In this document: positions 4,755 through 42,176 of the stretch, one piece after another
Numbering within the stretch: the first letter of the stretch is position 1
Layout: every line of letters starts with the position of its first letter
IMG/VR virus record: IMGVR_UViG_3300032331_001077
Span: 1-44,075 of that record
Origin: a virus
Length of the DNA: 44,075 bases
Direction: 5' to 3' (one strand)
Notes under the pieces: model-generated
What the model saw: only the letters and a program-made list of their open reading frames with translations
Told to the model about the DNA's origin: nothing
The model's database searches: none
Position numbers and translations under genes: made by a program

Positions 4755-5296
4755 GCCCAATTCGCCTGTCGGTATTTGACTTCGACGGGACGCTGTTCCG
4801 CAGCCCCGAGAAGCCCGAGGGCTGGGAAGCTGGGTGGTGGGGAAACCTCGCATCCCTCACCCCGCCCATCGTGCCCGAGTCCCCCGGTGCCGACTGGTGG
4901 AACGGCTCCGTGGTGCAGCGGGCGAAGCGGGACATCGGGGACGGTGAGACCGTCGCGGTGCTCCTCACGGGCCGTCTCGCCAAGAAGTTCACCCCCCGCC
5001 TCCGAGACCTCCTCTCGCAGGCGGGGCTGAAGTTCCAGCACGTCTACCTCGCCAGCGGCGGGGACACGGAGTCCTACAAGCTCCGGGTGATCGGTGAGCT
5101 CCTCAAGGAGTACCCGACGGTGACGGGCGTGGACATCTGGGAGGACCGGGCGAACCACCTCCAGAAGTTCGCGGACTTCGTGGAGTCGCAGGGGAAAGCC
5201 GCGTTCCCACACCTCGTGACGGTCACCGCCCACGAGCCCGAGAGCGCCCCGAGTGCCGAGAAGGTAGCGAGGCTATACCTAGTTGGGGGGCGCTGA
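4751..5296 (+). CDS. HAD-type phosphatase of the Swiss Army Knife RNA-repair family
   Basis: This protein matches the HAD_SAK_1 family pattern: SVFDFDGTLF at the N-terminus (nucleophile and acid Asp at residues 10 and 12), Trp-rich GWEAGWWGNLASL and DWWN segments, LLTGR (motif II region), and the distal acidic motif DIWEDRANH. The family is linked by domain fusions to RNA end repair and is thought to remove phosphates from RNA or nucleotide ends. ATG 4751 overlaps the HNH stop; an in-frame GTG at 4745 is less likely. Its stop overlaps the start of the next gene, whose first domain is a 2H phosphoesterase, so the two end-processing activities are translationally coupled. Substrate unknown. Confidence 0.82.
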   Translation: MSPIRLSVFDFDGTLFRSPEKPEGWEAGWWGNLASLTPPIVPESPGADWWNGSVVQRAKRDIGDGETVAVLLTGRLAKKFTPRLRDLLSQAGLKFQHVYLASGGDTESYKLRVIGELLKEYPTVTGVDIWEDRANHLQKFADFVESQGKAAFPHLVTVTAHEPESAPSAEKVARLYLVGGR

Positions 5297-8200
5297 TGTC
5301 CGTCGGGCTTTTCATCCCTCTTCCCGCGAATCTCGCGGAGAAATTCCCGTCGCTGGGCGACCATGACACGTCCCCACCGCACGCCACGCTGCTGTACTTC
5401 GGGGACGCCCCCGAGGACACCGAGCGTTTCCTCGACGTGTTGCGGGCGCATCTCCAGCAGTGGCCGAGAGAGATCACCGCGACTCTGCGGGGCCTCCGTC
5501 ACTTTGACAACCCGGACGGCACCGTTGCCTACAACGGCGTGCGGTTCGATGCCGACGTGGCGGGCTTGCGTGCGTCCCTCATCGCGCACCTGTCCGACAA
5601 CGGGTTCCCCTCCACGGACCGATCCCCCACCTACTATTACCCCCACGTCACGCTGGCGTACCTACCGCCCAACAGCGTCGGGGAGTATCGAGGCCCGGTG
5701 CCCGATGGCTCATGGACTTTCGACGAGGTGGAAGTCTGGGGGCTGGGGGACGACCCGGTGGCGCTGCCCTTGGGGGGAGCGAGCACGTCGCGCGTCGCCG
5801 CCCGCTACAAGTCCAAGAAGAAGATCGAAACCAAGGACGGTGGCGAGGCCACGGTGTACGAGTACGGCCCGAGGCAGGTGGCCAACCGTCACCGCGAGAA
5901 GGCCGAGCGGGTCGAGCACCTCCGCAACCACATCAGTGACCTCCGTGAGCGGGTGTCGAGCGACCTCAAGTCCGACGACCCCATGACCCGGCTGACGGCC
6001 CTCGCCGTGAGCCTCATGGATCACACCTGCGAGCGGGTGGGCAACGACGATTCCGCCAAGAACGGCCACTACGGGGTGACGGGCTGGAAAATCGAGCACG
6101 TCACGTTTCGTGGTGACACCGTCACCATCGAGTACGTTGGGAAGTCGGGAGTCGATCACACCAAGACGGTGGACCACGGCCCCACGGTCAAGGCGCTCCG
6201 AGAGGTGTGCAAGGACCGGGATGGCGGGGACGCCATCTTCGACACGGGCGACGCCAAGGTCAGCGCCGACGACGTGAACGATTACCTCGCGGAGTTCGAC
6301 GTGACAGCCAAGGACATCCGTGGCTACCGGGCGAACGACGAGATGTGCAAGGCCCTCCGAGAGGAGCGGTCCAAGGGGCCGAAAGACCTCCCTCGCTCCC
6401 GCAAGGAGAAGGACAAGATCCTCAAGGACGAGTTCAAGCGGGCGCTGGAAACGGTCGCGGAGACCGTCGGGCACGAAGCTGCCACCCTGCGGTCCCAGTA
6501 CCTCGTGCCGGGTCTGGAGGACCAGTACGTCCACGACGGGACGGTCATCAAGTCCCTCAAGACGGCGACCAAGACGGACGCCGAGCGAGAGGACGAGGCC
6601 ACCGAGAAGCTGGTGAAGCCCTCGCCCAAGAAGAAGCCCCCGCGCAAGGACCTACGGAACGAACGGGTGGAGTCCGAGGACGACCCGGACCTCGACACCG
6701 ACGACGACGACCTGTCGCTCAACTTCAAGAAGGTGGCTACCAGCCTCTTCGCGGAGATGGCCGTCCGTGTTGCTGCTCGCTATCTCGACGCCAAGCGAGA
6801 CCGCCCGTCTCGCAAAGAGCGCAAGAAAGAGAAGATGAAGCAGCGCGAGGAGGAGGAAGACGAGTTCCTCGCGGACGTGGAGGGTCGGAAATTCGTCAAC
6901 CCGGACACGGGCAACGAAGTCGGGTTCAAGTCTCTGCCTCGCGAGGAGCAGAAGAAGATCCGCGCCAAGTGGCGGGCGAAGCGTGAGAAAGAGAAGGACG
7001 ACGACTCTCCCGAGGTGACCATCGAGGATTCCACCGACGAGGAAGCCAAGAAGTTGGAGGAAGAGTACTCCGAGGGTGAGAAGCCCGAGGGAGAGAAGAA
7101 GCCCGAGAAGAAGCCCGAGGACGACGAAGAGGGCAAGCGGCTGACGGAGGAGTACGAGGCCGAGAAGTCTCTCACCAAGTCCGAGCTCGACGAAGCCAAG
7201 GCCGACGAGGCCGAGGCCCAGAAGGCGAAGGACGAGGCCGACGCATCCGCCAAGAAGGAGAAGGAGAAGGCCAAAGCCTACAAGGCCCCCCCGTCGGACG
7301 AGCTCCTCAACGAGGTGACCAAGGACCTCACCACGAAGGCCAAGCTCACCGACGCTGCCGCCAAGAGCACCGAGCGGCTCATCGGGGACACCGTCGAGAA
7401 CCAGAACGAGGCTGCGGTCGAGGACTTCAAGCAGCAGAGCCGGGAGCAGGCGCAGGGGATTCTCGACCGTGCCGCTGCGGGCGGTCCCAAGGCGTTGGCT
7501 ATTCCAGACGGGGTCTTCCCGAAGGACGCCAAGCTGGGCAAGACGTACAACGCCGAGAAGGTCGAGAGTTTCTTGGAGAAGTCCCGGGACGCCCGAGACA
7601 AACTCCACGAGAAGGCCGGGGAGGCGCAGGGAGACCTCGCCAAGGTCACGGAGGACATCAGCGAGAACGCCGGGAAGATCCGCGAGCACCGGGCCACGAT
7701 CCGCGAGAAAGCCGCCGAGCTCCGAGGCGCGGACAAGGGGATCGCGGATGCCCAGAAGGCTCACACAAAGGCCGAGGAGGCACTCAAGGCCGCGATCTCG
7801 CCCGTGCGTGACCCGAAGGAACTCAAGAGTGCCCGTGACGCGAAAGACCGGGCGCAGTCGAGCTACGACAGCGCCGTCGAGAGGATCACCTCCAAAGACC
7901 CGAAGGTGAAAGAGGCCGAGGCTGAACTGGATGAGGCCGAGAAGTCCCTTCAGACGGCTGAACCAGAAGCCTCCGAGGAAGCCAAGGCCAAGCGGGACGA
8001 GGCTCTCAAGAAGTTTGAGGATGCCCGAGAGACGGCCATCTCCAATGCCAGCGATGACGCCCGAGAAGAGATCGACCTCGCCAAGAAGGAACTGGACGAG
8101 GCTGATACGGCACTCACGAACGCCCGCAACCCGAAGCGTGATCCGAAGGCCGTCGAGGAGGCCAAGGCAAATGCCCTCGAAGCCCTCAAGAAGCTCGACG

Positions 8201-9261
8201 GGCTGAAGGCCGACAAGGCCGAGGCCCAGAAGGCGAAGACCAAGGCCGAGAAGGACTTGACCGAGGCTACGGAACGGTCTGCCAAGCTGGAGGAGGCGAA
8301 GACCAAGGCCGAGGAGACGGTGAAGGGGCTGGAGGCGGACCTCGCGGCCAAGAACACCGAGCTCAACCGCCAGACCGCCTACGCCATCGGGATGACCCAC
8401 TACATGGCCACCCAGACGGACCCCACCGTGGGGGCCAGCGACCCCGCCACGCGGCGCACCGAGTCGGCCAAGAAGTACGACAACCTCACCCCCGAGGCCC
8501 GTGAGGAGGGGCTGGGGCGGTCCAACGACGAGGTGAAGCGCCTCAAGGAGGAGGTCGAGGACGCCACGGGCGAGGCGCGTGAGGCACTTCAGAAGGAGCT
8601 CGCCGTGGCCGAGGCCGAGAACCAAGCCGCCCGGTTCTCTAACATCGTCAATGGCGAGGAAGACCGTGACGATGACATCGCCACCAAGCTCATCCGCAAG
8701 TTCGGCAAGGAGCGCGGGATCGACGACCCCCACATCCAGACTCTCTTGGAGATAGGAACGAGGGGTCCAGAGGGCCGGAAGGCGTTCTACAACCTCGCCA
8801 GCAAGCTCTCGGACGATGACTTGACCGAGCTCGTCGGGGACATGGGTGGCCCGTCCGCCGACACCCTCAAGAGCTTGGGAGGCTTCGCTGGGAAGGGGGC
8901 GAGGGAGGCCATCCTCAAGATGACGGCGCTCAACCTGTCGGGGGGCGTGGCGACCGAGAGTGAGCTCGACGAGCTAGAAAGCGCCTCCGAGGGGCTGTTT
9001 GAGGGAGTCCGTTCCTCCCTCGCCCGGGCCAAGAGCTCCGGGGCTCGCAAGAAGCTGGTGGAGGGAGCGAAGGGGATGGCATCGTGGATCAAGTCCAGCA
9101 CCGAGAGCCTTCCGGCCAAGCTCTCGGAACAGCGGGACCGCTTCTTGTCGAAGCTCGATCAGATGGCGTTCATCATCAAGCCCTACATCCCTCAAACTTC
9201 CTCCCCCTCGACGGCGAGAGTCGCCGCTCGTTTTCTCTCTTATCCCACGACGGGTAAGTAG
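5296..9261 (+). CDS. Fusion: 2H phosphoesterase + type IB topoisomerase + long coiled coil
   Basis: This 1321-residue protein has three parts. Residues 1-160 form a 2H phosphoesterase (LigT-like) with both catalytic motifs, H29-A-T31 and H117-V-T119. Residues about 175-460 are a poxvirus/bacterial-type topoisomerase IB with the full catalytic set: R247, K283 (GKSG), R342, H393 and nucleophile Y402. The H-to-Y spacing of nine matches the family, so relaxation activity is plausible. Residues about 497-1040 are an extreme Lys/Glu/Ala coiled coil, followed by a helical C-terminal region. The peptide RVAAR[Y/F] sits at 166-171 and 491-497, on both sides of the topoisomerase, and again at 1308-1314 near the end. 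The gene overlaps the HAD gene by 1 nt. A role as a processed or injected virion protein is inference. Confidence 0.85.
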   Translation: MSVGLFIPLPANLAEKFPSLGDHDTSPPHATLLYFGDAPEDTERFLDVLRAHLQQWPREITATLRGLRHFDNPDGTVAYNGVRFDADVAGLRASLIAHLSDNGFPSTDRSPTYYYPHVTLAYLPPNSVGEYRGPVPDGSWTFDEVEVWGLGDDPVALPLGGASTSRVAARYKSKKKIETKDGGEATVYEYGPRQVANRHREKAERVEHLRNHISDLRERVSSDLKSDDPMTRLTALAVSLMDHTCERVGNDDSAKNGHYGVTGWKIEHVTFRGDTVTIEYVGKSGVDHTKTVDHGPTVKALREVCKDRDGGDAIFDTGDAKVSADDVNDYLAEFDVTAKDIRGYRANDEMCKALREERSKGPKDLPRSRKEKDKILKDEFKRALETVAETVGHEAATLRSQYLVPGLEDQYVHDGTVIKSLKTATKTDAEREDEATEKLVKPSPKKKPPRKDLRNERVESEDDPDLDTDDDDLSLNFKKVATSLFAEMAVRVAARYLDAKRDRPSRKERKKEKMKQREEEEDEFLADVEGRKFVNPDTGNEVGFKSLPREEQKKIRAKWRAKREKEKDDDSPEVTIEDSTDEEAKKLEEEYSEGEKPEGEKKPEKKPEDDEEGKRLTEEYEAEKSLTKSELDEAKADEAEAQKAKDEADASAKKEKEKAKAYKAPPSDELLNEVTKDLTTKAKLTDAAAKSTERLIGDTVENQNEAAVEDFKQQSREQAQGILDRAAAGGPKALAIPDGVFPKDAKLGKTYNAEKVESFLEKSRDARDKLHEKAGEAQGDLAKVTEDISENAGKIREHRATIREKAAELRGADKGIADAQKAHTKAEEALKAAISPVRDPKELKSARDAKDRAQSSYDSAVERITSKDPKVKEAEAELDEAEKSLQTAEPEASEEAKAKRDEALKKFEDARETAISNASDDAREEIDLAKKELDEADTALTNARNPKRDPKAVEEAKANALEALKKLDGLKADKAEAQKAKTKAEKDLTEATERSAKLEEAKTKAEETVKGLEADLAAKNTELNRQTAYAIGMTHYMATQTDPTVGASDPATRRTESAKKYDNLTPEAREEGLGRSNDEVKRLKEEVEDATGEAREALQKELAVAEAENQAARFSNIVNGEEDRDDDIATKLIRKFGKERGIDDPHIQTLLEIGTRGPEGRKAFYNLASKLSDDDLTELVGDMGGPSADTLKSLGGFAGKGAREAILKMTALNLSGGVATESELDELESASEGLFEGVRSSLARAKSSGARKKLVEGAKGMASWIKSSTESLPAKLSEQRDRFLSKLDQMAFIIKPYIPQTSSPSTARVAARFLSYPTTGK

Positions 9262-26309: not shown

Positions 26310-27209
26310 ATGAGCGTAGTCTTCACCCCGAATCAGACCATCGGCCAAGGGGACCTCGACATCTTCTTGACCAACGCGACGGGCGCAGCCGCGAACGCCT
26401 ACTCGATCACCTACGCCATCTACTACGTCGATCCCGGCCCCCCTGAGACGGAAGTTCTCATCGGGAGCCCGACGCGGACGCCCGTGAACCCCACGGTGGG
26501 CGAGTATTACGCCAGCCTCACGGTGCCCGGTACGGCGACGCCCGGTGACTACCGCATCCGTTGGACCTTCCAGCAGTTCGCCGGGTCGCCGCCGCAACAG
26601 GTGGTGATGGAGTGGGCCGTGGTCGCCACGGGCACGGTGACTTCTCTCCCGACGTACAGCGGCCTCACCCAAGGGATGATAAACAAGCTGCGGCTCCTCC
26701 TCCGCGACCAGAACCCCGACAAGTACTATCACTTCCGGCCCCCGGAGGCGGAAGGAAACATCGGGAACTACAACCGGGTGTTCGGTCAAATCTGGGAGGA
26801 CGCCGAGCTCTACGAGTACTTGGAGCGCGGGCTCGACTGGTGGAACATGATGCCGCCCAACACTGCTGGGCTCCGCACCATCGACCAACTCGTGACCGAG
26901 AAGCCCGAGTGGCGCACGGCGGTGCTGTGGGACGCCATCACCCACGCCTGCTTCGCCCTCGCGTGCAACTGGGTGGCGGACGAGTTCGACTACAGCATCG
27001 GCGGGGTGAGCCTCTCCATCGAGAAGAGCTCCAAGTACGAGAGCCTCAAGCAGAACGCCGAGGGGCAGTTCGACAAGGCGGCGGAAGCCAAGGCCCGGAC
27101 GGTCAAGTTCATCCGGGGAATCCAGCAGCCCAAGTATGGCATCGGTATTCGCTCCAGTTTCGGACCGTTTGTAGGTAGAGGTGTGCTAAGTCCGAGAAAC
27201 TTCCTCTAG
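26310..27209 (+). CDS. Ig-like plus helical connector-like virion protein
   Basis: This 299-residue protein is preceded by AAGGAAGGTGA. Residues 1-110 form an Ig/BppU-like beta-domain (VFTPNQTIGQGDLDIFLTN...EYYASLTVPGTATPGDYRIRWTF). Residues 120-299 are helical, with GMINKLRLLLRDQNPDKYYHFRPPE and FDYSIGGVSLSIEKSSKYESLKQNAEGQFDK in outline, a pattern I associate with structural proteins of large myophages and with head-tail adaptors. This suggests a tail or neck protein with an added surface domain. It is the last structural gene before the accessory island. Confidence 0.7.
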   Translation: MSVVFTPNQTIGQGDLDIFLTNATGAAANAYSITYAIYYVDPGPPETEVLIGSPTRTPVNPTVGEYYASLTVPGTATPGDYRIRWTFQQFAGSPPQQVVMEWAVVATGTVTSLPTYSGLTQGMINKLRLLLRDQNPDKYYHFRPPEAEGNIGNYNRVFGQIWEDAELYEYLERGLDWWNMMPPNTAGLRTIDQLVTEKPEWRTAVLWDAITHACFALACNWVADEFDYSIGGVSLSIEKSSKYESLKQNAEGQFDKAAEAKARTVKFIRGIQQPKYGIGIRSSFGPFVGRGVLSPRNFL

Positions 27210-30274: not shown

Positions 30275-31162
30275 ATGAGGTTCACACCCAAGCCGTGTGG
30301 GGTCTGCACGGAGATTTTTTCGACCCCCGGTGCCCTCTACGAGCACCGAGAACTGGCCCATCAGTTTCAAGCATTCGCGGACAGCATCCACGAGCCCGGT
30401 GTCCGTCCAGAATTTGCGAAGGGGGCCTCGCTGGAGGCCGTGATTCTCACGGTCACGTCGGATTGGCACCGCTGCAAGGTCCACGGCAAGAGCTACCAGT
30501 ACTACCATCACTTCGCGCAGCACGTTCTCAACGAGCACGTCTGCCACGAGTGCGGCGTGCTCGTTGAGAACTTTGCGCCGCATAACCGGGAGTTTCACCC
30601 GGTCTCCGAGCAATGCCAGCATTGCGGCAATATCTTCCCCTGCGGCGGTCTGGAGCCCCATCTCCAACAGACGCAGTGCGACAAGCTGCGGTGCTTCAAG
30701 TGCAACCTGCGCGTCTCGCACATCTCCGAGGTGGAACACCACCGAGACCACCTGTGTCCGGGCCGGGAGGTGGCCTGCCAAGAGTGTGGTGCCGTGATGC
30801 AAGGCAGGTTCTTGGAGGAACACTACGAGTACCACCGCCGGAAGAGGCAAGAGCGGGCGAGACTAGAGCAGGAGAGGCAAGAGCGGGCGAGGCGGGAGCG
30901 GGAGAGACAAGAGCAGCGAGAGCGGGCGAGGCAGGAGCGGGAGAGGCAAGAGCGAGAGCGGCAAGAGCGGAGAGAGCGGGAGAGACAAGAGTGGGCGGCA
31001 CGAGAGCAGGAGAGGCTCTCACAGGTGCAGACGACGGCCACACAACCCGTGGGCAGGACGGTGCCCTGTCCCTACTGTAAGAAGCTGTTCAAGACGGTGC
31101 AGGGGGCGACGGATCATTTCCGACAGGTGCATCCCAACAAGAACTTCCCGGTGCAGCCGTAG
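30275..31162 (+). CDS. Multi-zinc-finger protein with Arg/Glu coiled coil
   Basis: This 295-residue protein carries about six C2H2/C2HC-type fingers: C8-C11-H24-H29 (a classical finger), C90-C93-H103-H108, C114-C117-H129-C135, C140-C143-H155-H159, C168-C171-H183-H187 and, after a gap, C265-C268-H281-H286. Residues 67-88 (CKVH...HH...H...H) may form another. Between the last two fingers, residues 188-250 are an almost pure Arg/Glu/Gln helix built of RERERQE-type repeats, coded by near-repetitive DNA. Arrays of C2H2 fingers are common in eukaryotes but rare in phages. DNA or RNA binding and self-association are plausible; the target is unknown. Confidence 0.72.
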   Translation: MRFTPKPCGVCTEIFSTPGALYEHRELAHQFQAFADSIHEPGVRPEFAKGASLEAVILTVTSDWHRCKVHGKSYQYYHHFAQHVLNEHVCHECGVLVENFAPHNREFHPVSEQCQHCGNIFPCGGLEPHLQQTQCDKLRCFKCNLRVSHISEVEHHRDHLCPGREVACQECGAVMQGRFLEEHYEYHRRKRQERARLEQERQERARRERERQEQRERARQERERQERERQERRERERQEWAAREQERLSQVQTTATQPVGRTVPCPYCKKLFKTVQGATDHFRQVHPNKNFPVQP

Positions 31163-31284: not shown

Positions 31285-32418
31285 ATGGCACCCTGCGCTG
31301 TTCGTGTCGCCTCCCGGTTCCTCGCTGCCAAGGAGTGGGGTGACCCCTCGGGGATGATCTCCGACTACCGGGGGGCTCTCACGGCGTTCCAGACCAGCAT
31401 GACTTCTGCCACCAGCGACGCCGCTCTGGCCTTCAGCCGCTACACCTCCGTCGCCTCGACTCCGAGGGAGAAGGAGATGGTGGAGAAGGCGATGGCGAAG
31501 GCGCTCCGTGGGCGTCTCTCCCACACCCTCGCCCCGCTCATCACCGCTGCCCGCCCGCTGGCCGAGTGGGTGGTCCAGACCCGGGAGATTCCCGCTAGCA
31601 AGGCCAAGGCGGTCGAGATGGCGGCGCGTCTCGTCGGAAGCATGGCGCGTTTCCCGCAGGATGTCACCGACTGGTACGAGAAGAACGCCAGCCGTCTGAA
31701 CCTCCTACTGGAAGCTGCCTCGTGGCCGGAACGGTCGGGGGAGGGTGAGGCGGCGGCGCAGGTGGTGACGGTTGGGCCGTTCAAGGTCCACAACACCATT
31801 GGTGCGGACGAGCGTCACTACAAGGAGATCCAAGGACTCGTCGAGAACGCGGTCCGTGCCCTGTCCACCACGCTGGACTTCAAGAAGGTCCTCTACGGGG
31901 ACGTGTACGTCGTCGGGCAACTGCGGCAGTCCAACACCCTCGCTTGGTACAAGGTTCAGTCGGACGACGTGTTCGTTCGATCCCTCGCCAAGAAGGGCGG
32001 CGACGACCTTCACTCTCTCATCCACGAGCTCGGCCACCGCTACTGGTTCCAGTTCGCCACGAACGACCAGAAGCGGAACATCAACATGCTTTTCATGGAC
32101 CTCGGGACGGCCCCGGCTCCCGCCGTGAAGCGCCCCACGGTAGGGGACGAGCTCCCGGTGCCCGTGAGGGGCTCCAAGGGCACCAAGTTCATCATCGTGA
32201 AGGACGACGGGCGGTACTACGAGACGGAACCGACGGGTCGTTTCCCCATCCACGAGGTCCTGCGACTCATCACCGAGAGAGCGAAGGGCACGGAGACGTT
32301 CCCGTCGCAGTACTCGATGACCGACAGCGACGAGTTCTTCGCGGAGTGCTTCGCGTTCTACACGCTGGGTCGGCTCAAGCCAGACCTCGCCCGGAGGTTT
32401 GAGGAAGCCCTGTCGTAG
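31285..32418 (+). CDS. Zinc metallopeptidase with N-terminal RVASRFL motif
   Basis: This 377-residue protein has the zincin motif H247-E248-x-x-H251 (LIHELGHRYWF) and, about 100 residues later, DSDEFFAECFAFY, giving a likely third Glu ligand (E350 or E354), the gluzincin arrangement. Residues 7-13 read RVASRFL, right after the start, as in an N-terminal tag. Residues 20-150 are a helical N-terminal domain (RGALTAFQTSMTSATSDAALAF...) that could be a prodomain or virion anchor. It begins with a CTAT element. A virion-borne or assembly peptidase is possible. It differs from the prohead protease, which is a serine enzyme. Confidence 0.78.
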   Translation: MAPCAVRVASRFLAAKEWGDPSGMISDYRGALTAFQTSMTSATSDAALAFSRYTSVASTPREKEMVEKAMAKALRGRLSHTLAPLITAARPLAEWVVQTREIPASKAKAVEMAARLVGSMARFPQDVTDWYEKNASRLNLLLEAASWPERSGEGEAAAQVVTVGPFKVHNTIGADERHYKEIQGLVENAVRALSTTLDFKKVLYGDVYVVGQLRQSNTLAWYKVQSDDVFVRSLAKKGGDDLHSLIHELGHRYWFQFATNDQKRNINMLFMDLGTAPAPAVKRPTVGDELPVPVRGSKGTKFIIVKDDGRYYETEPTGRFPIHEVLRLITERAKGTETFPSQYSMTDSDEFFAECFAFYTLGRLKPDLARRFEEALS

Positions 32419-32906: not shown

Positions 32907-33214
32907 CACGTCCTCCCGACGATGGCCTTCTTCATGGCGTCGTTCCACTCGCTCCAGATGGCGTCCCGGGAGTCCGAATCGGTGGTCCCGAGATGGGAGT
33001 TCTTGGCGATCAGCCGCTCGATGGCCTTGTAGGTGCTGGCGACGTTCACGGCGGTCATCGCGATCTCGCCGCTGATCTGCTCCGTGACCTCTTCGTGACC
33101 CTCGTAGAGGTTGTAGGGGTTGTCGTCCATCGCCGTCTTGAGCAGGGGCATGAGGTGCGGACGGAGGGACGGGTTCTGGTGAGCCAGTCGAATGAGCTTG
33201 GTGCGGAGGTCCAT
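32906..33214 (-). CDS. Small protein with N-terminal LIRLAH motif
   Basis: This 102-residue minus-strand protein begins MDLRTKLIRLAHQNPSLRPH and continues LMPLLK, nearly the same 25-residue segment as the + strand protein at 38452 (LRTRLIRLAHQ.P.LRPHLLPLLK). The remaining 75 residues differ completely from that protein. The pattern suggests a portable N-terminal helix used as a docking or targeting tag. It is the first gene of a two-gene minus unit. Function of the body (DNPYNLYEGHEEVTEQISGEIA...) unknown. Confidence 0.72.
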   Translation of the reverse strand: MDLRTKLIRLAHQNPSLRPHLMPLLKTAMDDNPYNLYEGHEEVTEQISGEIAMTAVNVASTYKAIERLIAKNSHLGTTDSDSRDAIWSEWNDAMKKAIVGRT

Positions 33215-33257
33215 GTCCCACCACGGTTATAGAGCAATCAATGCAGCGATTCCCGGT

Positions 33258-33275
33258 CTATACGGCTCGGCAGGT
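33258..33275 (+). promoter_or_regulatory. CTAT start element of the membrane protein gene
   Basis: CTAT lies 18 nt before ATG 33276, and ATAC/GTAT (33260-33263 and 33274-33277) pair across the interval. The fixed spacing helped choose ATG 33276 over the longer open frame from 33192, which would overlap the divergent minus-strand gene. Confidence 0.5.
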
Positions 33276-34121
33276 ATGACTCCCTCCAGCAACCGGGTCG
33301 CCACCCGACACCTCATCCGTCTCGCCGCACGGGATGCCTGTCGCACGACCTACCGCACCCGCACGGCGTCCGTGGACCTCACGGAGAGGGTGCTGGTGGC
33401 CGTGGCCGAGGGGGCGTACCTGTCGCACGGCGGGAACGTCCGCGTGGCGAGCCTCGTGTCGAAGCTCGCGGAGCTCGCCAAGGCCCTCAAGCGGTTCCCG
33501 AATCTCTGGGAGAAGTTGAAGGAGCTCCTCGGCATCGAGAGCCTGTCGGCTCTCCCGGGCAAGATCAAGGCGCTCCTCCAAGAAGCCTACGGGGCGCTCC
33601 GCAAGCTCCTCACCAAGGCGTTCGACTCGTGGCCTCTCAAGCTGTTCACCCTGCCCGAGAGCAAGCTGTTCTCGGTCAACAAGCTGCTGGAGGCGCTCAT
33701 GAAGAAGTACCCGCAGTTCGGAAAGTGGCTGGAGTCCAACGTCAAGCCTCGCGTGGACCAGTTCGACAAGTGGCTTCGGCAGTACCTCCCCACGGTCAGC
33801 AAGGTGCTGATGGTGGGCATCTACCTGTGGCTCTGGATGAACACCACGGAGTTTGAGTGGGACATCAAGGGCATCCTTGACGCGGCCACGGGACACCTGT
33901 CTCTCGCAGACCTCTTGGCCGGGTTGCCGGGGACCGTCATCGGCGGGCTCTTGGGGACGTTCAACCTCGGCACGTTCTCTCTCCTCCCCGCCGCCATCGC
34001 CGCACGAGTTCTCTTCCTCCTCGGCAAGCGGTACCTCGTGTGGACGGGCTCCGGGTTCAAGTTCGACGCCGAGGCCCTCAACGCGGACTTCGGCATCGCT
34101 CCCTCGGAAGTCCCGGCCTAG
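33276..34121 (+). CDS. Membrane protein with RVATRHL motif
   Basis: This 281-residue protein starts MTPSSNRVATRHLIRLAARDA, combining the RVA-R motif (residues 7-13) with a LIRLA element. Residues 60-175 are a Leu/Lys-rich amphipathic helical region (LAELAKALKRFPNLWEKLKELL...). The C-terminal third holds at least two hydrophobic segments (VLMVGIYLWLWM; LAGLPGTVIGGLLGTFNLGTFSLLPAAIAARVLFLL). No holin-like shortness: the protein is large. It could be a virion protein that inserts into the host membrane during DNA entry, or an envelope-remodelling factor. Not recognised with certainty. Confidence 0.72.
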   Translation: MTPSSNRVATRHLIRLAARDACRTTYRTRTASVDLTERVLVAVAEGAYLSHGGNVRVASLVSKLAELAKALKRFPNLWEKLKELLGIESLSALPGKIKALLQEAYGALRKLLTKAFDSWPLKLFTLPESKLFSVNKLLEALMKKYPQFGKWLESNVKPRVDQFDKWLRQYLPTVSKVLMVGIYLWLWMNTTEFEWDIKGILDAATGHLSLADLLAGLPGTVIGGLLGTFNLGTFSLLPAAIAARVLFLLGKRYLVWTGSGFKFDAEALNADFGIAPSEVPA

Positions 34122-34154: not shown

Positions 34155-34961
34155 ATGACGGACCGAGCACTCCTCGTCGGCATCAACAAGTACCCCGGTG
34201 CGCCTCTCAACGGGTGCATCAACGACATCAACGACATGGCGACGTACATCACGTCGGTCTGCAAGTTCGCCCCCACAGCGATCAAGTCGCTGAAGGACAA
34301 GGCTGCGACGACGGCGGCGATCCTGTCCGGGCTCCAATGGCTGGTGACCGGGGCGAAGGTGGGCGACCGCCTGTTCTTCCACTACTCGGGGCACGGCGCA
34401 CAAGTGCCGACGAAGACCCCGGCGGGCGAGGTGGACGGGCTGGACGAGGTGATCTGTCCCGTGGACTTCGATTGGTCCGACAAGCGTCTCATCCGCGACA
34501 AGCAGTTCCGGGCGCTGTTCGCGACCATCCCCACGGGTGTCGAGTTCGTGTGGTTGAGTGACTCGTGTCACTCTGGCGACCTGTCCAAGGGGATGCCCAA
34601 GCCGCACGTCACCCACCGCGTGATGCCCCTCCCCGACGTGAGCCACCCCGTTCACGCTGACCTCGCCAAGGCGCGGGAAGTTCTCCGTACCAAGAAGGCT
34701 GCGGCCCCGGCGGCGTTCAACGGGGCGCTGATCTCGGGCTGCAAGAGCAGCCAGACCAGCGAGGACGCTTACATCAACGGGCGGTACAACGGCGCGTGTA
34801 CCTACTACCTGTTGCAAGAACTCCGCAAGAACCCCAAGGCCAAGCTGACGGACGTGGTGATTCGCATGGATGCTGCGGTCAAGGCGGCGGGCTACGACCA
34901 AGTCCCCGGCTTGGAGGGTTCGGCCACGGTCGAGTCCCGCGCGTTCCTCTCCCTCACCTAG
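34155..34961 (+). CDS. Metacaspase-type cysteine peptidase (caspase fold, C14)
   Basis: This 268-residue protein has the complete p20-like caspase core. ALLVGINKYPGAPLNGCINDI is the first strand-loop, FFHYSGHGAQ carries the catalytic His80, DGLDEVICPVD is the conserved acidic loop and FVWLSDSCHSG carries the catalytic Cys138. This identifies a bacterial-type metacaspase/orthocaspase, which normally cleaves after Arg or Lys and takes part in programmed cell death or proteolytic regulation. There is no extra death-fold or membrane domain. It lies 10 bp upstream of a superoxide dismutase gene and starts with the CTAT element. Target unknown; the Arg-rich RVA-R peptide would suit metacaspase specificity, which is speculation. 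Confidence 0.88.
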   Translation: MTDRALLVGINKYPGAPLNGCINDINDMATYITSVCKFAPTAIKSLKDKAATTAAILSGLQWLVTGAKVGDRLFFHYSGHGAQVPTKTPAGEVDGLDEVICPVDFDWSDKRLIRDKQFRALFATIPTGVEFVWLSDSCHSGDLSKGMPKPHVTHRVMPLPDVSHPVHADLAKAREVLRTKKAAAPAAFNGALISGCKSSQTSEDAYINGRYNGACTYYLLQELRKNPKAKLTDVVIRMDAAVKAAGYDQVPGLEGSATVESRAFLSLT

Positions 34962-34971
34962 AGGCCCCGCG

Positions 34972-35571
34972 ATGACCCCCGGCACGCACAAGCTCCCGCT
35001 CCTGCCCTACGACTACGACGCCCTCGAACCGTGGTTGGGTGAGCAGACGGTGCGCCTGCACCATGACAAGCATCACCAAGCCTACGTCGATGGGCTGAAC
35101 GAGGCCGAGGTGGCGCTTGCCAAGGCGAGGGCAGCGGGTGACACCAAGCTGGTGCCGTACTGGCAGACCCGGCGGGCGTTCAACGAGGGCGGGCACGTCC
35201 TGCACTCGATCTTCTGGCACTGTATGTCGCCCGACGGCGGCGGGCTCCCCCAAGGCTACCTCGCCCGACTCATCGACCGAGACTTCGGCGGGTACAAGCA
35301 GTTCCGGGCCGAGTTCGTCGCCACGGCCAAGGGCATCGAGGGCTCGGGCTGGGCGGTGCTGGTGATGAAGCGCGGGATGCGGGGTGAGTGGCTGGAGATC
35401 GCCCCGGTCCACAACCACGAGAACCGCGCCCTGTGGCAGAGCCAAGTTCTCCTGCCGCTGGACGTGTGGGAGCACGCCTACTACCTCGACCACCAGAACG
35501 ACCGGGAAGGCTGGGCCAACACCTTCCTCGATCACCTCGTGGACTGGGACTACGTCGGCTCCCGTTTGTGA
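34972..35571 (+). CDS. sodA/sodB-like: Iron/manganese superoxide dismutase
   Basis: This 199-residue protein is a full-length Fe/Mn SOD, converting superoxide to oxygen and hydrogen peroxide. The N-terminus KLPLLPYDYDALEPWL is typical. The four metal ligands are present: H30 (LHHDKHHQAYVD), H78 (GGHVLHSIFW), D164 and H168 (LPLDVWEHAYYLDHQ). Gly-Gly before HVLH resembles the Mn type, while His in VHNHENR takes the place of the usual Gln. No signal peptide is seen, so it acts in the cell or virion interior. ATG 34972 is chosen because the family N-terminus begins there. It pairs with the metacaspase in one unit. Confidence 0.93.
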   Translation: MTPGTHKLPLLPYDYDALEPWLGEQTVRLHHDKHHQAYVDGLNEAEVALAKARAAGDTKLVPYWQTRRAFNEGGHVLHSIFWHCMSPDGGGLPQGYLARLIDRDFGGYKQFRAEFVATAKGIEGSGWAVLVMKRGMRGEWLEIAPVHNHENRALWQSQVLLPLDVWEHAYYLDHQNDREGWANTFLDHLVDWDYVGSRL

Positions 35572-35961: not shown

Positions 35962-38418
35962 ATGTCCAAGACCAAGTCCCTCACCACCACCAAGTTCGCC
36001 CTCCACACGTTCGCGGGTCGGGCGACCCGCTACTTCCGCTGCGAGGCGGAAGACCTCACCGCACAGGCCCCCGTGACGGTCAAGAAGCCGTCGCACCACA
36101 TCCTCGTTCTGGACCGCAGCGGGTCGATGTACGGGGACATCGGGGACGTGAAGTCCACGGTGGAGAAGCTCCTCACGCTGTCGGAGTTCAAGGACCCCAC
36201 GCTGAAGGTGTCCCTCGTCTCGTACTCGTCGCAGGGCGACGTGAAGCTGCACTTCAGCAAGGTGACGGTGGAGGACGTGATGCGGGCGGGCTCCCCGTAC
36301 CTCGGTGAGATCCGCAGCATTCACGCCACGGCTCTCACCTGCATCTCGCAGGGTCTCGTCATGGCCGAGACCATCGTGGACGACGCCGACGTGACGTGCG
36401 TCACCCTTCACACGGACGGTTTCGCCAACGACCGCTCGCCCACGGCGGAAGCCCGCGACATCAAGGCGGCGGTGGCCAAGCTCAAGAAGCACCCCAACCT
36501 GTTCGCGAACACCATCGGCTACCGGGACTGGTGTGACTACAACCTCCTCGCGTCCATCAGCAACGCGCTCTCGGGCGTGTGCGTACAGGCCAAGGGCATC
36601 AAGACCGTCTACGAGTCCGTCTACGCCACGACGAAGCTCCTCGCGGGCACCATGTCCCCCGCCATCGAGGTGTCCATCGGCAAGGCGGACCACGCCCTGT
36701 TCGTGTCCCGCAGCGCCCGCAAGGTGCTGGGGATGCCCGACACCTTCGCGGTGCAGGGGCTCGCTCCCGCCGACGACAAGACCGCCTACCGTCTGTTTGA
36801 GGTGTCGGCCAAGGACTACGCTGACCTCGACGCGCCCGTGAACGGCGAGAACGCCCCGGTGGACCCGGTGCTGGCGTTCGCCCGGACGCAGATCGCCTCG
36901 GGCAACCTCAACGCGGCCAAGTACGCTCTCGTCAGCACCCGGTGCGGCGAGCTCCTCGGGAAGCACGCTCGCGCCCTCGTCGCCAGCGACATCGCCGCGA
37001 TGGCAGCGGGCACGGAGGAGTACCTGTTCGACCGCATCCCGTTCGTCCCGTCGAACGGCTACGGGCTCGGGGCCACGGGACCGTCGGTGCTCACGGTGCT
37101 CACCTACCTCAACGGCCACGCGGACACCCTCACGGTGGACCTCCCGACGTTCGCGGCGGCGTACAAGCGGCGGGGCGTCAAGCGCATCCCGGGCACGCGC
37201 CTCGCGGACGGCACGGTGGAGCCGCCGACGGTGGCTTCCCGGCACCGGGACGGCGACGGCTGGGTGCGGGTGAGCTCGTTCGACCTCAACCGCAACACGG
37301 CGACCATCAACATGCTGGTGTCGCAGCCCATCGACCTGTTCGCCAACGGCAGCACGGCGCGGGTGGCGAGCGTCGCGGGCGTGAACCTCGACAACCTCAA
37401 GTCGTTCAACAACTACACGGTCGTCGGTGACGGGATGCTCAACGCCCCGTCCCTGCCTCTCCGCACGTCGAGCCAGAAGGTGCTCGACGGGCTCGTGGCC
37501 CTCGGGCTCCCCCTCGCCAATGCCAAGGCTGGTCAGCCCTTCACCCTCGACCTCGCCAACCTCCCGCTGGTGGACTACGACCTCAACGTGGGCGCGGTGG
37601 ATCACACCACGGCGACGCGCCTCGCGCGCCTCACGGTCCTCTCCAAGATCCTCAACGGCATGGTGAAGGGCGACGCGAGCGGTTTCACGTCGGAGCAGGT
37701 GGACGAGCTCAAGAAGCACTACCTCACCCCGGCGCTCTACTTCAGCCCCCCCACCACCACGGAGTACGCGGACCTCGCGGACGCCATCGCCACGGGCAAG
37801 GTGGACACCAAGCTCTCGTACAAGGTCAACATCGGCACCCAGACCATCACGGGCCTCGACAAGCTCAAGTCGGGCAACGAGTACCTCCAGCGGCGCTTCG
37901 CGCTCACCTTCATGGGCAAGGACATCGAGAAGCCGACGCTGGACTACATCGCCCTCGCGGATTCCAAGTGGGCGGTCAAGAAGCTCTCGGCGCGCACGAC
38001 GCTCGATGCCGTGGATGAGCTCTCGTACCCGATCTACGAGGGTGTGCTCGGGCTCGGTGAGGGCAAGGCGCTCAAGGAGCTCCTCACCTCCATCGGGTGC
38101 GTGGACCCGGACCGTTTCCTCGCGGACATCAAGGGTGCGAACGCCTCCGACGCGGTGCGGGAAGCCATCCGTTTCGTGGACGGGGCCATCGAGACCGTGT
38201 ACGAGACGGTGCGCCCGCTGGCGTTCTACGTCGGCGCGACGGGCCTCGTGCCCGACTCCCTCGGGGCCAAGGCGATGACCGCCGAGGAGTTCGCCACGGC
38301 GTACCCCGACGCGAAGCTCTCCAAGGCCGAGAAGGAGGAGGGCAGCTTCCACGTCCTCCCCGACAACACGGTGCTCACCGTCTACGTCAAGGGCGAGCAC
38401 TTCAGCACGGGCAACTAG
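35962..38418 (+). CDS. Large vWA-domain protein
   Basis: This 818-residue protein has an N-terminal von Willebrand A domain with an intact metal-ion-dependent adhesion site: D51-R-S53-G-S55 (LVLDRSGSM), a Thr in HATALT (residues 123-126) and D152 in LHTDGF. Such domains bind a partner through a Mg2+ ion. The remaining 600 residues show no membrane segment; they include a beta-rich middle (about 250-450) and an Ala/Leu/Lys-rich helical C-terminus. No AAA+ ATPase partner (MoxR-like) is in the window. It could be a virion or host-interaction protein. A strong RBS and very GC-biased codons suggest high expression. Confidence 0.82.
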   Translation: MSKTKSLTTTKFALHTFAGRATRYFRCEAEDLTAQAPVTVKKPSHHILVLDRSGSMYGDIGDVKSTVEKLLTLSEFKDPTLKVSLVSYSSQGDVKLHFSKVTVEDVMRAGSPYLGEIRSIHATALTCISQGLVMAETIVDDADVTCVTLHTDGFANDRSPTAEARDIKAAVAKLKKHPNLFANTIGYRDWCDYNLLASISNALSGVCVQAKGIKTVYESVYATTKLLAGTMSPAIEVSIGKADHALFVSRSARKVLGMPDTFAVQGLAPADDKTAYRLFEVSAKDYADLDAPVNGENAPVDPVLAFARTQIASGNLNAAKYALVSTRCGELLGKHARALVASDIAAMAAGTEEYLFDRIPFVPSNGYGLGATGPSVLTVLTYLNGHADTLTVDLPTFAAAYKRRGVKRIPGTRLADGTVEPPTVASRHRDGDGWVRVSSFDLNRNTATINMLVSQPIDLFANGSTARVASVAGVNLDNLKSFNNYTVVGDGMLNAPSLPLRTSSQKVLDGLVALGLPLANAKAGQPFTLDLANLPLVDYDLNVGAVDHTTATRLARLTVLSKILNGMVKGDASGFTSEQVDELKKHYLTPALYFSPPTTTEYADLADAIATGKVDTKLSYKVNIGTQTITGLDKLKSGNEYLQRRFALTFMGKDIEKPTLDYIALADSKWAVKKLSARTTLDAVDELSYPIYEGVLGLGEGKALKELLTSIGCVDPDRFLADIKGANASDAVREAIRFVDGAIETVYETVRPLAFYVGATGLVPDSLGAKAMTAEEFATAYPDAKLSKAEKEEGSFHVLPDNTVLTVYVKGEHFSTGN

Positions 38419-38451: not shown

Positions 38452-38916
38452 ATGACCACCCTTCGTACCCGTCTCATCCGTCTGGCCCACCAGCAGCCCA
38501 ACCTCCGTCCGCACCTCCTGCCCCTGCTCAAGTCGGCGCGGAGCTCGTTTGAGTTCCTCATGTCGATGGCGATGAACCATGACATGGCGGACGCCGTGCG
38601 GATGGATCGGGACGAAGAGCTCACCGAGAGCTACGTCGATCTCCTTCGATCTTCCCTCAACCGGGTCGAGAACTCGCTGGACGGCGAGCGCGTCAAGGGG
38701 TCCGTCCTCAAGGTCAAGCGTATCGAGGCCAAGCGCGGGAAGCTCGTCGTGGTCCTTGAAACTTCCCCCCCTCCTGTTACGGAGGAAGATGAGGAGGCAG
38801 TCCTCTACGGGGCAGAGCGTCTGCTGGAGAGGGAGATCATCGAGGAATTCAATCGACCCGGCGGGGAATGGTTGTACGAAGAGATGAAGCAAGAGATTGA
38901 GATCGAGACTCTCTGA
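38452..38916 (+). CDS. Small acidic protein with N-terminal LIRLAH motif
   Basis: This 154-residue protein begins MTTLRTRLIRLAHQQPNLRP and HLLPLLK, the segment it shares with the minus-strand protein at 33214. The remainder is different: an acidic helical body with SLNRVENSLDGERVKGSVLKVKRIEAKRGKLVVVLE as a probable beta-hairpin and a Glu-rich C-terminus. ATG 38452 is chosen by the CTAT spacing and the motif. The shared N-terminus in unrelated bodies argues for a docking signal. Function unknown. Confidence 0.72.
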   Translation: MTTLRTRLIRLAHQQPNLRPHLLPLLKSARSSFEFLMSMAMNHDMADAVRMDRDEELTESYVDLLRSSLNRVENSLDGERVKGSVLKVKRIEAKRGKLVVVLETSPPPVTEEDEEAVLYGAERLLEREIIEEFNRPGGEWLYEEMKQEIEIETL

Positions 38917-41168: not shown

Positions 41169-42176
41169 ATGGCGAAGCAAACTGAACTGACTCAAGGCAT
41201 CGGTCTAGACGTGGGTACCATGAATGTGGTCGCGGCCCGCAAGACCCCTTCGGGCGTCGAGACCCGCCGCGTGCGGGACGCCTTCTTGGAGCTCCCGGCG
41301 GACTCCAAGAAGATGCTGAAGCTCGCGAACGTGTCCTACGTCGAGCGTGCCGACGAGCTCCTCATCCTCGGGGACGCCGCGATGGACACGGCCAACATCT
41401 TCGGGCGCGAAGCCCGTCGTCCGTTGTCGGCGGGCTTGGTGAGCTCGTCCGACGTGGACGCGATGGAGATCCTCGGGCTCCTCGTGAAGAACGTCCTCGG
41501 TGAGCCCAAGGTTTCCGGTGAGCACTGCTACTTCAGCGTTCCCGCCGCGCCCGTGGACAAGCCGGGGCAGGACGTGATCTACCACCGTGGCGTTCTGGAG
41601 AAGATCGTCCGCGAGTGCGGGTACACCCCCACGGCGGGCAACGAGGCGATGGCAATCGTCTACGCCGAGACCGCGAAGGAGAGCTTCTCGGGCATCGGCA
41701 TCTCCTTCGGTAGCGGCATGACCAACATCGCCCTCGCGGTGAACACCATCGAGGGTCTGTCGTTCTCCGTGGGCCGTGGTGGTGACTGGATCGACGGGGG
41801 CGCGGCCAAGTCCATCGGCATCACGGCCAGCCGCATCTGCGCCATCAAGGAGAAGGGCATCGACCTCAACGCCCCCGTGGGGCGCGAGCAGGAGGCTCTG
41901 ACCTTCTACTACAAGAACTTGATCGAGTACGCCATCGACCAGATCGCCCTCCAGTTCGCCTCGGTGCAGGGCAAGTTCACCCTGCCCAAGCCCATCCCCA
42001 TCGTGGTGTCGGGCGGCACGTCCAAGGCGGGCGGCTTCCTCGACCTGTTCAAGACGGTGTTCGTGAAGAAGCACAAGCGGTTCCCGATTGAGGTGAGTGA
42101 GATCCGTGCGGCCACGGACCCCCTCAACGCCGTCGCCAACGGGCTTCTCATTCAAGCGATGCAGGAGAGCGAGTGA
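41169..42176 (+). CDS. Actin-like ATPase (ParM/MreB/Hsp70 superfamily)
   Basis: This 335-residue protein carries the actin-superfamily nucleotide-binding signatures: phosphate-1 IGLDVGTMNVVAAR (D14, G16, T17), phosphate-2 GIGISFGSGMTNIALAV (about residues 175-191), GRGGDWIDGGAAKSIG (about 202-217) and the adenosine motif IPIVVSGGTSKAGGF (about 276-290). The size suits bacterial actins such as ParM, AlfA or MamK. Such proteins polymerise with ATP; in phages they may position DNA or the replication centre, or fold partners if chaperone-like. It is unusual among neck/tail genes. Its stop overlaps the next GTG start, so it is translated with virion genes. Confidence 0.85.
   Translation: MAKQTELTQGIGLDVGTMNVVAARKTPSGVETRRVRDAFLELPADSKKMLKLANVSYVERADELLILGDAAMDTANIFGREARRPLSAGLVSSSDVDAMEILGLLVKNVLGEPKVSGEHCYFSVPAAPVDKPGQDVIYHRGVLEKIVRECGYTPTAGNEAMAIVYAETAKESFSGIGISFGSGMTNIALAVNTIEGLSFSVGRGGDWIDGGAAKSIGITASRICAIKEKGIDLNAPVGREQEALTFYYKNLIEYAIDQIALQFASVQGKFTLPKPIPIVVSGGTSKAGGFLDLFKTVFVKKHKRFPIEVSEIRAATDPLNAVANGLLIQAMQESE

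Follow-up and report, generated by a model that had tools for sequence, protein, structure and literature searches.

A predicted active metacaspase beside a superoxide dismutase in a huge-phage genome fragment: probably two separate cargo genes

A metacaspase and a Fe/Mn superoxide dismutase (SOD) encoded side by side in a fragment of a huge-phage genome are best read as cargo, two accessory genes that are independent of each other and lie in a variable region, with the metacaspase acting as an Arg/Lys protease in the infected cell. We give this reading a probability of roughly 0.7. The supposed module for host death and oxidative stress is thereby turned into two exchangeable cargo genes, and an attractive but wrong lead is removed. 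The remaining interest lies in the metacaspases themselves, which have relatives in at least 109 viral contigs (E <= 1e-3) and an intact active site in 75 of the 75 compared. What caspase-type proteases do in phage infection is now directly testable with one recombinant protein.

The window, meaning the whole stretch of DNA analysed here, is a linear viral record from IMG/VR, 44,075 bases long and probably a fragment. It gave matches to terminase, portal and major head protein as well as to a head protease, and we treat it as part of the genome of a huge phage. A near DNA relative of its first 20 kb was not found in the phage collection. The metacaspase gene (34155..34961, plus strand) encodes a stand-alone p20-p10 protein of 268 aa (peptidase C14), and the SOD gene (34972..35571, plus strand) a protein of 199 aa. 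The 10-nt gap between them reported in the earlier note was recovered exactly (AGGCCCCGCG), and from their position the two genes are probably co-transcribed; a scan for a shared promoter gave no sigma-70-like site, a result that is uninformative either way. GC3 is 0.88 for the metacaspase and 0.90 for the SOD, like the surrounding phage genes, and residence of both in the phage genome is supported.

Both genes sit in a variable region flanked by conserved core genes. In many huge-phage relatives, the left anchor (26310..27209, plus strand) keeps its place upstream of the volactin gene. That gene is the right anchor (41169..42176, plus strand); its product is an actin homologue of the volactin family (PF25216, E 3.6e-76), and related loci number 36 in viral contigs, many of which are from huge phages. 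Between these anchors, spacing and content differ among relatives. Directly upstream of the metacaspase is a 309-aa protein (33192..34121, plus strand) that has hydrophobic stretches and, close to its N-terminus, an RVATRHL motif, and for which neither Pfam nor PHROG gave a match. L017 encodes a homologue at 88% identity and L018 one at 54%, each having an SOD downstream; in L019 the homologue stands directly after the SOD. A scan with this gene as query recovered L017 alone. Further upstream, a 377-aa protein (31285..32418, plus strand) was read directly as carrying a zincin-like HELGH motif as well as an RVASRFL motif at its N-terminal end. It had no Pfam match, has homologues in L017 (82%) and L004 (35%), and is a second candidate protease about 3 kb upstream of the metacaspase. 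Downstream of the variable gene pair, an 818-aa VWA-domain protein (35962..38418, plus strand; VWA_2 E 7e-6; phrog_2426 E 6.4e-24 over residues 30-257) forms a conserved anchor, with identities of 61% in L002, 50% in L004, 81% in L016 and 86% in L017. Two other products of the window were noted: a 1321-aa protein (5296-9261) joining a 2'-5' RNA ligase-like domain to a eukaryotic-type topoisomerase IB catalytic core, and a protein (30275-31162) that weakly resembles C2H2 zinc fingers and has a long repeat stretch rich in Arg, Glu and Gln.

The metacaspase assignment draws on Pfam and PDB matches, an AlphaFold2 model and residue conservation. PF00656 matches residues 4-256 (E 9.2e-32), bearing out the complete caspase core with H80 and C138 that had been noticed earlier. 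PDB metacaspases match at E 2.8e-31, and the profile match covers both p20 and p10. The model (mean pLDDT 83.9, pTM 0.83, from an 18-sequence alignment) has as its best structural match Arabidopsis metacaspase 4 (6w8r_B; Z 29.6, rmsd 3.4 A, 245 residues aligned), with Yca1, MALT1, legumain and caspases ranking lower. H80, C138 and D136 are invariant in 75/75 viral and 76/76 cellular relatives, a figure that is partly selected for the Cys, given that the viral search patterns held the Cys motif or the p10 motif, and not for the His, which was absent from the patterns. D24 and S78 are likewise kept in every relative of these two sets that covers the positions. It had been suggested that the protein might be a decoy, a catalytically dead bait for caspase-type immunity; the retention of H80, C138, D136, D24 and S78 throughout the viral relatives makes this scarcely credible, and we rejected it.

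The S1 pocket of TbMCA2 consists of Cys92, Asp95, Ser156 and Asp211, and metacaspases cut after Arg or Lys (reviewed in PMC4357240). These four pocket residues align with C21, D24, S78 and D136 of the phage protein, so that an acidic S1 pocket is present. Because of this correspondence, cleavage after Arg or Lys can fairly be inferred for the phage enzyme, which is probably a complete, active cysteine protease. The ORF begins at the first strand (MTDRALLVGIN), and the prodomain of type I metacaspases is absent. The four-Asp calcium site of TbMCA2 comprises D173, D189, D190 and D220. In the calcium-site region of the phage protein, D94 and D115 are well kept, while R114 and K145 occupy positions that are Asp in Yca1.

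The neighbouring gene product is, judged by its sequence, a complete Fe/Mn SOD, as Pfam, PDB and phage relatives agree. It holds both Sod_Fe domains (PF00081, E 4e-27; PF02777, E 2.2e-28), and the four metal ligands expected from the earlier reading were found by motif (H30, H78, D164 and H168). The catalytic Tyr is present in KHHxAYV. The closest PDB chain is 8bhx_A (E 5.9e-51), which likewise has a His in the outer-sphere region, here in the stretch PVHNHEN. Its counterparts in L016, L017 and L018, all large phages, are 70-89% identical and share the start MTPGTHKLP. The enzyme would remove superoxide in the infected cell. Both genes had been called rare in phages, and neither is unique among them: metacaspase relatives occur in the many viral contigs counted above, and jumbo phages in culture have Fe/Mn SODs, which carry the annotation sodB in the Pseudomonas phages MIJ3 and Callisto and are also present in PA5oct and Paride.

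The earlier note had proposed that the pair could control host death and oxidative stress. In a functional unit of this kind, the metacaspase would drive control of host death and the SOD would restrain oxidative damage. The 10-nt spacing on one strand fits such a unit, and yet the wider distribution of the two genes does not. Of 50 other viral records with a metacaspase, 2 (L091 and L086) were found to contain an SOD (PF02777), leaving 48 without it, and the reverse search for the metacaspase (PF00656) in 23 SOD-bearing viral records gave 0/23 while detecting the positive control L002; viral records may be fragments, so that these absence counts understate presence. Among 34 volactin-bearing relatives, which were found without reference to either gene, none had a metacaspase and two (L016 and L017) had an SOD. 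When only records of at least 150 kb were considered, SOD was present in 2 of 13 with a metacaspase versus 2 of 12 volactin-bearing kin without one, which is no enrichment. In L091 an SOD does lie downstream of the metacaspase, with two genes between them. L091 is an unrelated 385-kb phage, so the co-location of the two genes arose at least twice, an independent case that speaks for a functional unit. Against this, the L091 SOD had no counterpart in the compared DNA of relatives with the L091-type metacaspase neighbourhood. In L086 the SOD is far from the metacaspase.

Near relatives of the window carry one gene or the other. L016 and L017 have the SOD without the metacaspase, and L002 and L004 the reverse. 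No metacaspase was found in the 266 kb of L016, where a GGACT-like gene and the SOD are present, and no SOD was found in L002 (485 kb) or L004 (94 kb), where the metacaspase lies near the VWA gene. In L017 the order is the homologue of 31285..32418, the homologue of 33192..34121, an AIG2/GGACT-like gene, the SOD and the VWA protein. The third of these (L017:5498-6001) is a chimeric ORF, made up of the first 11 metacaspase codons, a 4-nt deletion and a complete GGACT/AIG2-like protein, so that the GGACT-like (gamma-glutamylcyclotransferase-like) protein starts from the metacaspase start codon. It opens MADRALLVGVN, against MTDRALLVGIN in the window metacaspase, and after the deletion the next metacaspase codons (GAPLNGCV) can be read in another frame. 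The remnant thus comprises about the first 20 metacaspase codons, just upstream of the SOD, and its local DNA alignment score was 67, whereas the best of 500 shuffles reached 33.

This stub, which is frameshifted, is direct evidence, at the level of sequence, of gene replacement: in the L017 line a gamma-glutamylcyclotransferase-like gene was written over the metacaspase, and the SOD was retained. The common ancestor of the window phage and L017 therefore most likely had a metacaspase at this site. The adjacency would then be older than their split and would have lasted some time, which can be counted in favour of a functional unit, although the survival of the SOD in L017 after its neighbour was replaced counts against it. 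On the distribution and this replacement, we rejected the functional pair and regard it as very unlikely. The two genes appear to have been gained and lost separately, with the metacaspase of a sister phage replaced by another gene.

Recurrent motifs of the RLIRLAHQQPNLRPHLLPLL and RVASRFL types were observed at one or the other terminus (N or C) of proteins that otherwise show no relation, at 38461-38530, 31303, 33294, 4201 and 9217 in the window and also in L002, L004 and L016-L018. The motifs contain Arg and occur both in the window and in the metacaspase-bearing kin L002 and L004, as would suit a metacaspase that processes phage proteins with RVASRFL-type or RLIRLAH-type terminal motifs; the earlier note had suggested cuts after Arg in RVA-R tags. 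They are, however, also present in L016, L017, L018, L208, L211, L217 and L241, records in which no metacaspase was found, and were seen in 0/878 ORFs around 33 other phage metacaspases. Tag processing is highly improbable on this distribution and was rejected.

With two independent cargo genes as the preferred reading, the stand-alone metacaspase, predicted to be active and to cut after Arg or Lys, would most likely act in the infected cell on proteins of the host or of rival elements during takeover. Its target could be a defence or competitor protein, in which case it would serve as an enzymatic weapon in counter-defence or between phages. The gene is accessory and exchangeable and lies in a variable region, its catalytic residues are kept, and it partially matches the PADLOC 'caspase' model (E 3.4e-25), all of which agree with such a role; but no defence gene or known partner adjoins it, it has no sensor domain, and 79 phage loci show no conserved neighbour. 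We consider this reading unlikely. A role in proteostasis or in remodelling the host proteome is possible, though still rather doubtful; remodelling is given somewhat better odds than a specific cut in counter-defence. Such a role is suggested by one seven-member clade (L011, L064, L072, L075, L082, L083 and L091) in which the metacaspase stands in a run with ClpS, several members also carrying an Hsp20-like gene and ClpX. In that clade, to which it is confined, this neighbourhood suggests a part in protein quality control or in remodelling of the host proteome; it is absent from the window.

No partner gene was conserved across the 79 phage metacaspase loci, and the largest set of recurrent neighbours was limited to that clade of seven. 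ClpS and ClpX of L091 were confirmed by Pfam. We also observed that L091:3975-10962 brings close together ClpX, a metacaspase with a C-terminal hydrophobic helix, ClpS, a SufBD-core protein and the SOD, with GTP cyclohydrolase I near this cluster.

A quick maximum-likelihood tree intermixed the viral and cellular metacaspases, requiring 10 label changes, at least four of them forced by well-supported branches, and this mixing implies several gene exchanges. The literature searched, which had most subscription papers outside its reach, covers metacaspases of bacteria and giant viruses and yielded no paper on those of phages. The main text of a huge-phage survey (PMC7162821) mentions neither caspase nor superoxide. 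In BFVD, the named clear matches were caspases of eukaryotic viruses only, with no phage protein having a comparable named match. Phage metacaspases as a family therefore appear to be undescribed in the literature searched, while the individual protein falls within the known metacaspase family. A broader picture can be drawn tentatively, with the odds somewhat against it: huge phages may carry widespread, undescribed, active metacaspases as host-directed proteases serving takeover or counter-defence, one clade having a ClpS, ClpX and Hsp20 proteolysis cluster.

Compared with known anti-phage caspases, the likeness is partial. The match to the PADLOC model PDLC02987 covers profile positions 5-130 of 453, the NCBIfam EACC1-associated caspase NF047832 scores 37 bits against a cut-off of 140, and neither a full-length match nor the partner genes of known anti-phage caspase systems were found at the metacaspase locus. 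Giant-virus metacaspases (Fadolivirus, Clandestinovirus and Medusavirus) gave the best BFVD matches and are also virus-encoded caspase folds, but they belong to eukaryotic viruses and are about 13-31% identical. The nearest non-phage relatives, full length and 51-54% identical, are the chromosomal metacaspases of Bacteroidota (L123, L124 and L125) and Sandaracinaceae (L166) MAGs, which differ in having bacterial gene contexts; many more distant Bacteroidota members read CHAED after the Cys rather than CHSGD. In L123 and related MAGs, the metacaspase is followed by a gene for a small secreted-looking protein of ~180-190 aa (L123:5943-6524, L128:5799-6344 and L142:5811-6350), possibly a partner or substrate of the metacaspase. 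The jumbo-phage Fe/Mn SODs (Pseudomonas PA5oct, MIJ3, Callisto and Paride; Vibrio 2.275.O) belong to the same enzyme family as the window SOD but are only 23-26% identical to it, those of L016-L018 being nearer. The metacaspase itself shares with the metacaspases of MEROPS C14B (Arabidopsis 4 and 9, yeast Yca1, Candida glabrata MCA1 and T. brucei MCA2) the common fold, the His-Cys dyad, the acidic S1 pocket and the p20 and p10 parts. It differs from them in being phage-encoded and without an N-terminal prodomain, and from Yca1 in the Arg and Lys noted above.
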